Positions 34,560 through 42,721 of a DNA stretch of 64,000 nt are shown here, in pieces (the stretch's first letter is position 1; every line of letters begins with the position of its first letter). The notes under the pieces are model-generated. The model was not told the DNA's origin and did not search any database. It saw only the letters and a program-made list of their open reading frames with translations. The DNA comes from Deltaproteobacteria bacterium (GTDB lineage Bacteria; Desulfobacterota; DSM-4660; Desulfatiglandales; HGW-15): positions 1 to 64,000 of the forward strand of contig JAGVAP010000009.1 of NCBI GenBank assembly GCA_020060215.1. Reading direction: 5' to 3'. The position numbers and the translations under genes were made by a program.

Positions 34560-35318
34560 TCACTCCTCCGGGCTGCCGAACTGAAAGATGGCGCTTTGGA
34601 TGATCCGGGTGGCGTATGCCATCTGTTCCGGCAGGAAGTAGGCCCCGCGTGCCCGATGTGTTGACTTGCGGTAAGCGACGGCATGTTCTTCTGACCAGAA
34701 GAACACACTCTCCTTTCAGAAGGCCTCCACGATGCACTCCTCGTCGAGCCCGAACAGGTCCACCTCCGGCACGTAGGCAATGGGCACGCATTCGGGGTCT
34801 TGTGCCTTGATGTGGAGGTCGCTGTCGATCTCCAGTTCTATCGGCGTGCCGCAGTGGGCACACCGGCTCCGCACCCTCGTCGACAGGTAGGAGTTTCTCA
34901 GCCGCCCTTGCACGAAGGGGGTCGCAAATGCGTCGGCCGCTCAGGCGGCGTATACCTGTTCCCCCGTATCAAAGGTGACATGGTGGGGTGTCTCCTCGAC
35001 CGTCACCGGGTAGGCCCAGACCACCCGGCCCTGCCGGTCGCGGCAGATGAACGTCATGTGCTCATCCAGGTCCCCGAGAATGGACACGACTCTTTCGATG
35101 CCCATCCCGAGCCTATCGGCTACGAAGCCGGGGGTCATCGGTCTTGCATGCCCCGGGAGTTCCCTCACGACCAAGTGATGGACCCTCCGGTGCTCTTCCG
35201 TCATGAACGCCAGCTCCCTCTGAAACCTCCTTTGGGAGGTAAGGATCCGCTTCTCCCACAGGGACGGGGGAACCTTGAGGACAAACTGCCATAATCCAAC
35301 CATGAGTCTCTTCTTCAT
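34560..35318 (-). CDS. MerB-like organometallic lyase, putative selenoprotein with two Sec
   Basis: One frame of 253 codons interrupted only by two UGA codons, at 34941-34943 (residue 126) and 34716-34718 (residue 201), and ending at UGA 34560. The protein aligns with organomercurial lyase. An N-terminal winged-helix-like part is followed by VVWAYPVTVEETPHHV, then YAA-UGA-AADAF, which matches MerB YAWCALDTL: the first UGA is at catalytic Cys96 and D129 matches Asp99. RCAHCGTPIELEI matches the Cys117 region, and EAF-UGA-KESVFF matches SFCCHVHFF, with the second UGA at catalytic Cys159 (numbering of plasmid R831b MerB, from memory). The reading frame is otherwise intact. A SECIS-like hairpin follows the second UGA. 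The ATG at 35318 overlaps the thioesterase stop (ATGA) with GGAGG upstream. The alternative is a pseudogene. Confidence 0.8.
34685..34704 (-). promoter_or_regulatory. SECIS-like hairpin for the second UGA
   Basis: On the mRNA, GTTCTTCT-GGTC-AGAAGAAC forms a perfect 8-bp stem with a GGUC loop. The loop begins 20 nt after the UGA. From memory, the E. coli fdhF SECIS has a GGUC(U) apical loop about 19 nt after its UGA, so both loop and spacing agree closely. Confidence 0.75.
34905..34919 (-). promoter_or_regulatory. Possible SECIS hairpin for the first UGA
   Basis: On the mRNA, CCCTT-CGTGC-AAGGG gives a 5-bp stem that can extend by two more C-G pairs past a bulged C. The loop has a G-U and starts 27 nt after the UGA, within the range known for bacterial SECIS elements. 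Weaker than the second element. Confidence 0.5.
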
Positions 35319-35767
35319 CGAGCGCTCCTCCGTTCTTGTCCGGAACCGTTTCCGGTTTCTTCGGCCCGCTGGAGGTCCTCCCAGGACGAGAAAACCTCGC
35401 TCCCGGTCTCGACGATATGGCCCATGCCGTCAAAAAAGACATTGACCACCTCCGCATCGACCACCAGACGATCGGGATTGCCCGTGTAGATCCTCTGCTC
35501 GAAGGTAATGCTGCGCCGGCTCTTCCTGGCGATGCCTGTCTCGATCCTGATCACGTCCCCCAGCACAGCCGGGTGATGGTAGTCGATGCCGATATGGACC
35601 GTGGGATGGGCTACGGCCGTTTCCGCCAGGATGCGTGAGATCTCCCTGTGCCGGTCAAAGTAGTCCCACCGGGCCTCTTCCATGAACCGGATGTACCCGG
35701 CATGGTTCACATGGCCGAATGCGTCGATGTGGTACCCCCTGATCTTGATCTGCATGGTCGACGGCAT
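35315..35767 (-). CDS. Acyl-CoA thioesterase (4HBT hotdog fold)
   Basis: About 151 aa hotdog-fold protein. The catalytic loop is HIDAFGHVNHAGYIRFMEEA (Asp and the HVN motif), with a typical middle strand VHIGIDYHHPAVLGDVI. Relatives hydrolyse acyl-CoA or 4-hydroxybenzoyl-CoA type thioesters. I place the start at the ATG at 35767 (MPSTMQIKIRGYH); the ATG at 35755 is also possible, neither with a strong ribosome site. Its stop overlaps the start of the MerB-like selenoprotein gene (ATGA), so the two are probably co-translated. Confidence 0.8.
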   Translation of the reverse strand: MPSTMQIKIRGYHIDAFGHVNHAGYIRFMEEARWDYFDRHREISRILAETAVAHPTVHIGIDYHHPAVLGDVIRIETGIARKSRRSITFEQRIYTGNPDRLVVDAEVVNVFFDGMGHIVETGSEVFSSWEDLQRAEETGNGSGQERRSAR

Positions 35768-36499
35768 GGTTTGCTTCGACTCGGGAGCGCGGCAAAGGAT
35801 TATGCCGGCGGTCACCTGTTGTTTGCCATCCTGATGAACAGCCCCACGCTGGAGGCGGCGCTCGGGAAGTTCTGCAGGTACCACTGCATCCTGTCCGACG
35901 TGGTGCAGCCCCGGCTCTCAGATACGGGCAACAGCCCCGTGATCACCCTGGAGACACCACATCCCGAAGTCAACCTGAGCCTGGGACAGGAGGCCTTTGT
36001 CTTCAGCCTGTTCGCGTCGATCGTCGAGGTCCTGACCGGCCGCAGAAAGAATGTCGTGGAAGTCCGTTTTTCCCACCCGCGGCCGAGGCGGGCCGATCCG
36101 TATCGCCGCATATTCTCCTGCCCGACAAGATTCGACCGGAAGGACAGAGGTCTTCTCATCCGCAGGAGCGCCATGGGGAAACCGGTGTTTCTGTCCAACC
36201 CCGATCTGCTTTCGCGGCTCGAAACGATGGCGCTGGAACACGCGGCAAAGACCTCCACCGGGAACACGGTCCGCCACAAGGTCGCGCTCGTCCTGGACCG
36301 GATGCTTCCTTCCGGCGAGAAACCCTCGCTGAGAAGGGTGGCGGAAGCCCTTGCCATGAGCACCCGGCTGCTGCAGCAGAGACTCAGGGCGGAAGAAGGG
36401 CTGAGCACCACGTCGAGGAGATTTGGAAAAGCTGCCTCAACTGGTATGGATCCACCATGGACGGTCGGTAGAGGACCCTCCTCCCACATATTGTTTTAA
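35768..36499 (+). pseudogene. AraC-family regulator fragment
   Basis: The frame reads like the middle of an AraC regulator of the arabinose-binding type II (OruR/ArgR-like) group. It begins GLLRLGSAAKDYAGGHLLFA (usual YGLLGYAL region), continues with SPTLEAALGKFCRYHCILSD, and ends with one helix-turn-helix, SLRRVAEALAMSTRLLQQRL. The first ~75 residues and the second helix-turn-helix are missing: upstream is the start of the thioesterase, downstream the tail of the kinase (4-bp overlap). I see no credible start codon, so I call it broken. Confidence 0.65.
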
Positions 36500-39782: not shown

Positions 39783-40057
39783 TTTGGCCCCTCCTTTTCT
39801 AAAGGCGATAGCTATAAGTTAGAGGCTGTTGCTCCGGATGCCAGATGGGGGAAGAGGCTTATTGATGCTGCTTCTTTGCAGTATTCTCAAAGAGAGGACG
39901 GCGCCGCATGAGAAGATCCGCCGATCTGCGATCAATCACCAGAAGAAGCACCTCCGACCCCCTTTCCTTATCCGTAAACACCACCCCATAACCACCGGGT
40001 TTGAAAAGAAGACCCATCGTAGTATGATGGTCCTCAATACACGTGAGGAGCAGGCGC
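39783..40057. other. Divergent intergenic region
   Basis: Between the TPR gene (minus) and the GcvT-SHMT gene (plus). No gene was recognised; promoters for both directions are expected here but I could not single one out. Confidence 0.4.
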
Positions 40058-42721
40058 ATGAACGGAGCATCCCTGAAGAGGACGGTTCTGAACGAGTGGC
40101 ACCGGTCGCGTGAGGCCAACATGACCGATTTCGGCGGGTGGGACATGCCCCTCCATTACCGGACGGGGATCATCCGGGAGCACCTGGCCACGAGGAGGTT
40201 CGGAGGGCTTTTCGACGTCAGCCATATGGGCCGTTTCCGGATCAGGGGAAGGGGGGCCGTTCCGTTTCTGCAGCATGTGCTCAGCAACAACGCGGAGGCC
40301 CTGGAGCCATGTCAGGCGCAATACACCTTGGTCGCGGACGAGAGGGGCGGTCTGATCGACGACACCTACCTGTACCGCCTTGCAGAGGAGGACTTCCTCC
40401 TGGTCGTCAACGGATCGAACCGGGAAAAGGACTGGGACCATTTTCAGGGGCAGGCAGGGGGTTTCGAGGATCTGTCGATCGAGGATCAGAGTGCGTCGAT
40501 CGCGATGATCGCCTTCCAGGGGCCGCTCGCGGGCCGGGTCCTCGAAGGGCTGATCGAGGGGGGATTGCTGCCCGAGCCCATGCGAAACCGGCTCTCCGAG
40601 GTCGTCGTGCTCGGGACGCGGATGTGGGCGGCCCGCACCGGCTACACGGGCGAGCCCGTCGGTTTCGAGCTCTTCCCCCCTTCGGAGAAATCGGTCGAAC
40701 TCTGGTCCCGGCTTCTCGAAGCGGGCGAGCCGCTCGGCATCCTGCCTGCAGGGCTGGGCGCGCGGGATACCCTCCGGCTGGAGGCGGGGATGCCCCTCTA
40801 TGGCAATGAATTCGGCACCGACCCCGAGGGGAGAGCGTTCCCCGCCTTTTCTTTTCCCCTCGCCTCGGCCGCGGTCAGCTTCTCCCCCCGCAAGGGAGAA
40901 TACCTAGGGAAGAGACCCCTCCTGGCCCAGTTCAGGCAGGTCCAGAAGCTCATGACCGGGCTCTTCGAACCCAATGACATCCTGCCCCGCAGGACCGTGC
41001 CTCTAGCGCTGCTGGACAGGGGAGTGGCCCGGCACGGGGACGAGGTCTTCCTGGAGGAGAAGAGGATCGGATGGGTCACCAGCGGCACCGTGGTCCCCTA
41101 CTGGGAGTTCGAAGGAGAGGGTGTGGAGGCGACGATCACCGGCGACGAGGGGAGAAGGGCCATAGCCCTGGCCTGTCTGGATGCCCGGCTGCTGCCCGAG
41201 CAGCAGGTCGATGTGGTCGTGAGGGGCCGCCGCATCAGGGCGCAGATCGTGCGGTGGCACGGCCGCTCCGACGCGCCCCCCTACTTCCGCCCCATCCCGG
41301 CAGGATGGTGCAAGACCGTGCCCGGTTCGTTTGCGGAGGACTCCGCCCGGAAGGGGCTGACCCTGTTGACCAGGTCCGTCGAGAACCACGAGTGGCGCCA
41401 GCAGCGGTGCATCAACCTCATCCCGTCGGAGATGACCCCCTCTCCGCTCGTCCGGCTGCTGCAGGTCCTGGACCCGGCAGGCCGCTACGCAGAGCACAAG
41501 CCCTTGCCTGCGGCCTGCGACCGGGAGGTGTACTACTACCAGGGCACGGATTTCATCGAATGGGTGGAGGATTCGCTGCTCGAGGAGGTGCGGACATATC
41601 TCAATGCACCGCTGGCAGAGGTGAGGCCCATCAGCGGGCAGACCGCCAATATGACCGTCTTCAGCGCCATGGTCGATTACAGGAATCGCGTCGACCGAAA
41701 ACGGGAACCCGAGCGCATTCGGCTGGTGATGAACAACCACATCGGCAAGGGGGGACACCTCAGCGCCCAGCCCATGGGCGCTCTGCGCGACTATGTGGCC
41801 AAGGACCCGGTCACGGAGAGATTCGCGGTGGTGAATTTTCCCGTGCAGAGGGAGAACCCCTACAGGATCGACCTGGAGGAGACGGGCCGGCTCCTGGAGA
41901 GGATCGAGCCGGAGATCATCATCTTCGGAAAGAGCATGGTGCTTCACCCCGAGCCGGTGCAGGCCGTGCGGAACCTGGTGGACGGGATGAAGATCCGCCC
42001 TGTCCTGATGTACGACATGGCCCATGTGCTCGGACTCGTCGGGCCTCACTTCCAGGCCCCCTTCGAGGAGGGCGCCGACATCGTGACCGGCTCCACCCAC
42101 AAGACCTTCTTCGGATCCCAGAGGGGGATCATCGCGGCCAAAATGGTGGAGAACACCCCCGAGTTCGATCTCTGGGACGCCATACGCAGGCGGGCCTTTC
42201 CCGGCATGACCAGCAACCATCATCCGGGAACGCTCCTCGGGCTTCTCATGGCGGCCATGGAGATGAATGCGTTCAAGGAGGAATACCAGCCCCTGGTGAT
42301 CTCCAATGCCAAGGCCTTTGCCAGGGCGCTCAAGGACCGGGGACTGGATGTGCAGGGAGACCCTGATCGCGATTTCACGGAGACCCACCAGGTGATCGTG
42401 AGGGTCGATTATGCACAGGGGATCCGGGTCGCCCGTTCTTTGGAGCGGAACAACATCATCGTAAATTATCAGGCGCTGCCCACGGACGAGAGCTTTACCG
42501 CAAGCTCCGGCCTGAGAATGGGGGTTGCGGAGATGACCCGCTTCGGGATGCAGGGACGGGATTTCGAGTCCCTGGCCGGTCTGATCGCCGAAGTGGTGAA
42601 GGGCGGCGCAGACGTGAAGGACCAGGTCATCGGGTTGAGGCGGGGATTTCAGCAGATGCGGTTCTGCTTCGAGGAGAAGGAACTGGAGCCGCTGAAGGAG
42701 AGGCTGCTCGCGACCTTCTGA
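40058..42721 (+). CDS. GcvT-SHMT fusion: aminomethyltransferase / serine hydroxymethyltransferase
   Basis: 887 aa. Residues 1 to about 425 are a GcvT domain (FGGWDMPLHYRTGIIREH, GGLFDVSHMG, then GYTGEPVGFELF and LGARDTLRLEAGMPLYGNEF, a tetrahydrofolate-binding T-protein pattern). Residues about 435-887 are a PLP-dependent SHMT-like domain (INLIPSEMTPSPLVR; YYQGTDFIEWVE; Schiff-base Lys in TGSTHKTFFGSQRG). The first part makes methylene-THF from the aminomethyl group, the second can use it to make serine from glycine, so the fusion could channel C1 units. I chose the ATG at 40058 (GAGGAG 7 nt upstream) over a GTG at 40043. The gcv operon at 0.3-3.4 kb lacks gcvT, so this may supply it. Confidence 0.9.
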   Translation: MNGASLKRTVLNEWHRSREANMTDFGGWDMPLHYRTGIIREHLATRRFGGLFDVSHMGRFRIRGRGAVPFLQHVLSNNAEALEPCQAQYTLVADERGGLIDDTYLYRLAEEDFLLVVNGSNREKDWDHFQGQAGGFEDLSIEDQSASIAMIAFQGPLAGRVLEGLIEGGLLPEPMRNRLSEVVVLGTRMWAARTGYTGEPVGFELFPPSEKSVELWSRLLEAGEPLGILPAGLGARDTLRLEAGMPLYGNEFGTDPEGRAFPAFSFPLASAAVSFSPRKGEYLGKRPLLAQFRQVQKLMTGLFEPNDILPRRTVPLALLDRGVARHGDEVFLEEKRIGWVTSGTVVPYWEFEGEGVEATITGDEGRRAIALACLDARLLPEQQVDVVVRGRRIRAQIVRWHGRSDAPPYFRPIPAGWCKTVPGSFAEDSARKGLTLLTRSVENHEWRQQRCINLIPSEMTPSPLVRLLQVLDPAGRYAEHKPLPAACDREVYYYQGTDFIEWVEDSLLEEVRTYLNAPLAEVRPISGQTANMTVFSAMVDYRNRVDRKREPERIRLVMNNHIGKGGHLSAQPMGALRDYVAKDPVTERFAVVNFPVQRENPYRIDLEETGRLLERIEPEIIIFGKSMVLHPEPVQAVRNLVDGMKIRPVLMYDMAHVLGLVGPHFQAPFEEGADIVTGSTHKTFFGSQRGIIAAKMVENTPEFDLWDAIRRRAFPGMTSNHHPGTLLGLLMAAMEMNAFKEEYQPLVISNAKAFARALKDRGLDVQGDPDRDFTETHQVIVRVDYAQGIRVARSLERNNIIVNYQALPTDESFTASSGLRMGVAEMTRFGMQGRDFESLAGLIAEVVKGGADVKDQVIGLRRGFQQMRFCFEEKELEPLKERLLATF

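Follow-up and report, generated by a model that had tools for sequence, protein, structure and literature searches.

A MerB-family gene with in-frame UGA at its two catalytic cysteine positions likely encodes a double selenoprotein

The 64,000-nucleotide stretch of DNA analysed in this study (hereafter the window) carries a MerB-family gene in which UGA codons stand at both catalytic Cys positions. These codons are likely translated as selenocysteine (Sec), and the product likely cleaves carbon-mercury or similar carbon-metal bonds. Taken separately, the assignment of a double selenocysteine is made with very high confidence, and the carbon-metal lyase activity, proposed by analogy with MerB, is considered moderately probable. 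In MerB, the textbook enzyme for the breakage of carbon-mercury bonds, the metal is held by two cysteines. The proposal of a MerB-like double selenoprotein, made in an earlier note on this DNA, is supported by the presence of UGA at both positions in 81/81 genes, by sister proteins with Cys at position 126, by a constrained hairpin past each UGA codon, and by the Sec machinery found in most of the relatives' genomes.

Analysis of the region confirmed a single frame of 252 residues and a stop with UGA at codons 126 and 201, as the earlier note had described. The frame lies on the minus strand and starts with an ATG at position 35318, and no MerB-like frame was present on the plus strand at the same coordinates. 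The sequence contexts of the two UGA sites are AUA (126) and FUK (201). The features of the region are collected in Table 1.

Table 1. Coordinates of the MerB-like gene, its UGA codons, the putative recoding hairpins and the adjacent gene in the window
Feature	Coordinates	Strand	Details
MerB-like gene with two in-frame UGA	34560..35318	-	252 codons + stop
UGA codon 126, predicted Sec	34941..34943	-	at MerB Cys96 position; TGA in 81/81 genes
UGA codon 201, predicted Sec	34716..34718	-	at MerB Cys159 position; TGA in 81/81 genes
Stop UGA, codon 253	34560..34562	-	full-length relatives terminate near the same site
Predicted SECIS hairpin 1	34905..34919	-	stem CCCTT/AAGGG, loop CGTGC; columns 25-39 of alignment A5
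Predicted SECIS hairpin 2	34686..34703	-	stem TTCTTCT/AGAAGAA, loop GGTC; loop 19 nt past UGA201
YbgC/FadM-type 4HBT acyl-CoA thioesterase	35315..35884	-	PF13279 65.3 bits; TIGR00051 76.3 bits (cut-off 68.7)

The by-eye placement of both UGA codons on the catalytic cysteines of MerB was borne out by phmmer alignment to MerB structures, which in chain 3f2g matched positions 126, 129, 153 and 201 of the query to Cys96, Asp99, Cys117 and Cys159, respectively. The positions of the catalytic trio Cys96/Asp99/Cys159 are found in MerB order, with the Asp kept and UGA (predicted Sec) at both Cys positions. The location of the catalytic Asp three residues past the first UGA (D129) and the retention of the middle Cys (C153) were likewise confirmed, and Asp129 was invariant in the 70 rows of alignment A2. 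The presence of UGA instead of Cys at both catalytic sites leaves unaffected the claim that the protein works like MerB. Regarding family models, the score against Pfam PF03243 was 62.1 bits, above the gathering score of 27, and the scores against the NCBIfam MerB models were far under the equivalog cut-offs (63.6 vs 193 and 58.2 vs 200 bits). The test for a MerB fold was positive, with a structural identity to MerB of 18-20%. Four NCBIfam families matched the protein at E values up to 1, and NCBIfam (June 2026) contained no model whose cut-off is reached by this protein.

Conservation of the two UGA codons was determined in genome contigs, where the scan revealed 141 relatives, the analysis being carried out on the best 80 of them. 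TGA was present at both columns in the window and in 80/80 of these loci, so that the two stops at exactly both catalytic Cys sites, considered improbable as random events in the earlier note, are not a product of chance. Among the same 81 genes (the window and the best 80 of 141), the middle Cys was retained in 81/81 and the codon for Trp101 was TGG in 81/81, and in-frame UGA inside the matched stretches was confined to both of these columns and the C-terminal end. According to their record titles, the relatives belong to Desulfobacterales, Syntrophus, Anaerolineae, Dehalococcoidia, Acidobacteriota, Nitrospirota, Rokuibacteriota, Binatia, Zixiibacteriota and others.

In addition, stops were counted in matches of profile A2 to genome samples, which overlap each other, contain some recurrent genomes and include many source genomes of the 80 loci. 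Exactly two TGA codons were present in 44 of 47 strong matches (limit 1e-25 except in one sample, with nine weaker matches without internal stops excluded). The other three matches (L104, L105 and L119) cover the second half only, with its one TGA, and L105 is located at a contig edge. In L104 and L119, the second half and its UGA were intact with no recognisable first half upstream, corresponding to either a lesion or an assembly join. Two copies of the double-UGA gene were observed in each of two genomes (L100/L106 in G1290 and L108/L120 in G1443). No relative was identified in viral contigs scanned with profile A1, a single weak match (27.3% identity, annotated as merA, from Simkania) was found in plasmids, and the search of plasmids with P0115 gave no match.

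A profile search of protein databases resulted in 602 matches, 120 of which were listed. The alignment of 104 records derived from it comprised 92 new records from the matches listed, the window's own record and 11 earlier ones. In 63 of these 104 aligned records, among the matches listed, Cys was present at column 126 and the record ended directly before column 201; Trp at both columns was observed in 35/104, also among the matches listed, and the window's row and two odd rows were found in the remainder. An earlier protein search had given 67 matches, 36 of them stopping right before column 126 and 26 showing Trp at both columns. We attribute the Trp at both columns to gene callers that applied code 4 to UGA on short contigs. 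Three single records (P0022, P0081 and P0077) departed from these patterns, two of them with Ser126 and Cys201 and one with Gly and Leu; UGA was present there in the loci read as DNA.

The Cys126 sisters ending directly before column 201 correspond to records in the range P0085-P0160 (63/104 in all) and probably constitute a group of single selenoproteins with a Cys/Sec pair. In this group, the UGA at codon 201 is deduced only from the position at which the records end, and the kept matches of whole-genome samples included no DNA for it. When column 126 was masked and a tree was constructed from 146 sequences, the minimum number of changes was 7 for the Cys group and 8 for the UGA group, and at least five UGA/Cys switches were forced by well-supported branches. 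MerB itself shows Cys at both aligned columns. These data agree with the expectation of Cys or predicted Sec at both columns in relatives, with UGA in 81/81 genes and Cys126 in 63/104 aligned sister records.

Putative SECIS hairpins were identified at both sites. In hairpin 1, a 5-bp stem is possible from codons CCC TTC GTG CAA GGG, with the loop 26 nt past UGA126. Three codons of this stretch were nearly or fully frozen: GGG for Gly138 (81/81 vs a background of 0.235), CCC for Pro134 (80/81 vs 0.293) and GTG for Val136 (81/81 vs 0.342). A 6-pair helix, one pair longer than this stem, was able to pair in 98.1% of cells. The both-side changes (5 cells) were all located in the outermost pair, which the window does not form, and the single pair changed on both sides did not go beyond the control, as 282/500 shuffles reached one. 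Sliding the partner by +2 gave equally many both-side cells, and sliding it by +3 gave nearly the same score. Covariation was rejected as evidence for hairpin 1 after these shuffle and slide controls. In the window, the 44-nt context of this hairpin folds best in another way (z 0.28, with 113/200 shuffles as good), and the 25-nt hairpin alone gave a z of -0.41.

Hairpin 2 was paired in 99.8% of cells, and covariation supports this hairpin only. Three pairs were changed on both sides, a number reached by 1/500 shuffles, and the both-side changes amounted to 10 cells vs a shuffled mean of 0.8 (0/500 shuffles); the number of further pair types was not unusual (61/500 shuffles). The changes consisted of T-A to C-G in four and in five distinct sequences, and of C-G to T-A in one. 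The T-A to C-G changes cost the substitutions F207L and W208R, each of them matched on the opposite strand of the stem. Furthermore, the folding energy in the window reached a z of -4.15 (0/200 shuffles), and synonymous freezing was observed as TCA in 72/81 and TCG in 9/81 genes vs a background of 0.108 for TCA.

The bSECIS model, as given in PMC13188914, sets a loop distance of 16-37 nt; the observed distances of 26 and 19 nt are in line with that model, as is the G found within the first two positions of the loop. A strict in-house bSECIS test was passed by 47/81 genes at site 126 and by 17/81 at site 201, vs 18/265 random codons. Altogether, the expectation of SECIS elements at both UGA contexts was upheld for hairpin 2 by covariation, freezing and energy, and only in part for hairpin 1, with pairing and freezing in its favor and energy and covariation against it.

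With respect to the machinery for Sec insertion, selB was over the cut-off in 67/79 of the relatives' genomes (41/49 and 26/30 in the two sets, the L008 genome being outside the set). Since the Rfam cut-off for tRNA-Sec was passed by 5/14 control genomes, only scores of at least 60 bits were counted, and these were found in 39/49 genomes (40 over the Rfam cut-off by the tool tally). At least one of the two components was present in 47/49 genomes. The baseline for selB in the reference sample of the phylum of G033 was nearly as high (158/201), and the co-occurrence of selB was rejected as a specific argument. The data indicate that Sec insertion is available in the relatives, a permissive condition, and not that the gene follows selB. 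The 64-kb window itself contained no tRNA gene and no Rfam match at the gathering score.

Analysis of the gene neighborhood revealed that the end of the thioesterase gene and the start of the MerB-like gene share 4 nt (ATGA), and co-transcription of both genes is probable. On the other side of the MerB-like gene, the window contains a TetR gene and a Liv-type ABC transporter. The neighbors tested in the window were the thioesterase, TetR, a histidine kinase, a TPR protein, a GcvT-SHMT protein and the Liv-type ABC transporter, and no mer gene was found among them. No SAO family was assigned by NCBIfam to seven window neighbors (for two ATPases, among the best 25 families). The GcvT-SHMT protein is encoded by an 892-aa frame at 40043-42721 of the plus strand, in which a serine hydroxymethyltransferase domain comes after a glycine cleavage T protein (GCV_T) domain, apparently as a fusion of GcvT with GlyA.

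No conserved neighborhood was observed in the 80 loci, where frames were called only if they had at least 90 codons, so that short genes, and genes for other selenoproteins, may have escaped notice. The largest close-upstream clusters comprised 8 and 6 loci, and 8 and 8 (plus one partial) by tblastn. A MerR-type regulator was located ca. 50-90 nt upstream in 8/80 loci, with a ninth match being partial (tblastn), and a MarR-type regulator was upstream in 8/80, in six of them within 200 nt. A thioesterase was beside the gene in 5/80 loci, plus the window. Two MerR-type neighbors that were scanned scored 40.3 and 41.9 bits vs a cut-off of 150.85 for the mercury MerR model. The loci with MerR-type regulators are L004, L005, L006, L007, L009, L013, L023 and L065, and one cysteine was kept in six aligned members.

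In MerB models from a computational study, Cys96, Cys159 and Asp99 hold Hg and shuttle the proton, according to PMC4525700. The present protein retains all three positions, with predicted Sec in place of both Cys, so that the simplest reading is metal binding by a pair of selenolates combined with proton transfer by Asp129. Each hairpin would act as a SECIS element recruiting SelB and Sec-tRNA. By analogy with MerB, the selenolates of Sec126 and Sec201 would bind the soft metal of an organometal, and Asp129 would move the proton that frees the alkane. The metal might then be handed to cellular thiols or selenols, and the substrate may be methylmercury or another organometal. The predicted organometal lyase would be expected to bind the metal more strongly than the thiol enzyme.

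Two further explanations for the internal stops were considered. A variant genetic code, with UGA read as Trp (or Gly), would agree with the Trp present at both columns in part of the protein records. This reading is contradicted by the codon usage of the 81 genes, in which Trp101 is always TGG and the two columns are always TGA, never mixed, and by the nature of the columns, which correspond to the MerB catalytic Cys and show Cys in sisters at the first of them, so that we give it almost no credence. A decaying gene, or assembly errors, might account for two in-frame stops and for half-length matches such as L104 and L119. This possibility is negligible as well: the same two stops and, within the matched stretch, no additional one ahead of the C-terminus were found in 80/80 loci (best 80 of 141), and this conservation refutes decay or assembly error for the family.

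Membership in the published SaoL family, raised in the earlier note, would be in line with the MerB-like and selenium-linked nature of both proteins. In fact, SaoL was the third NCBIfam model matched here and the best match for 8/10 relatives scanned, several of them being records ending at column 201. Nevertheless, the protein reached 48.6 bits vs a cut-off of 140 for NF040728, and thus the curated model places it outside SaoL; 10/10 relatives scanned were also under 140 bits, and no SAO family was assigned to the seven window neighbors scanned (for the two ATPases, among the best 25 families). As to whether both Cys are Sec in SaoL, a question raised in the earlier note, PMC13188914 assigns SaoL only one Sec, within a CU motif, vs the AUA and FUK contexts of the present protein. 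Altogether, this membership is very improbable. A more serious alternative, which we still consider unlikely, is a double selenoprotein with a MerB fold and no lyase activity, using the Sec pair for binding or sensing of a soft metal or metalloid, or for redox functions. The lack of mer genes among the neighbors tested, the varied neighbors (MerR-type and MarR-type regulators and thioesterases among them), the low scores of the MerR-type neighbors against the mercury model and the low structural identity to MerB point in that direction. Against it, all the catalytic positions (Cys96, Asp99 and Cys159) are kept in order, with the Asp invariant in alignment A2, which favors the reading as an organometal lyase.

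Beyond this gene, organometal lyases with a Sec pair replacing the Cys pair of MerB might be widespread and overlooked, working away from mer operons in bacteria of the subsurface and of sediments (Desulfobacterota, Chloroflexota, Acidobacteriota and others). They might thereby provide an uncounted route of methylmercury or organometal breakdown missed by merB surveys; we put this forward tentatively, at slightly less than an even chance. Surveys of merB miss genes truncated at UGA. Since protein records often end at UGA (36/67 before column 126 and 63/104 before column 201), counts of environmental demethylation genes probably miss the family. If the proposal is true, a MerB family with Sec at both sites, and with a likely recoding signal of its own past each of them, would constitute a natural test of the contribution of selenium to metal-carbon chemistry, and it would bear on the link between mercury and selenium in anoxic sediments.

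Regarding known selenoproteins, two reviews (PMC13188914 and PMC9312934) each include a single MerB-like selenoprotein; the example accession is identical in both, and the later review names the protein SaoL and assigns it one Sec. In the parts of the literature on MerB, SaoL or alkylmercury lyase and selenoproteins that were searched, there was no MerB-like selenoprotein beyond the SaoL row and no MerB-like protein with both catalytic Cys as Sec, a scope that does not extend to Haft and Gwadz 2023 or Haft and Tolstoy 2025. Searches for terms within PMC5029168, PMC2398784 and PMC12013277 revealed no MerB. The metal-binding double selenoprotein MbdU (NF045648) resembles the present protein in having two Sec per protein and a metal-related name, according to PMC13188914; unlike SaoL, its model is not among the four NCBIfam families matched at E values up to 1. 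SaoL (NF040728), the MerB-like organometallic lyase of the SAO system, shares the likeness to MerB and the link to selenium, and differs in its one Sec and CU motif, as listed in PMC13188914, vs two UGA here. The nearest known system is MerB (PF03243; PDB 1s6l, 3f0o and 3f2g; MerB2 5c17). In comparison with MerB, the present protein has ca. 20 extra N-terminal residues, its gene stands without a mer gene among the neighbors tested, and both catalytic sites, which are Cys in MerB, are encoded by UGA.
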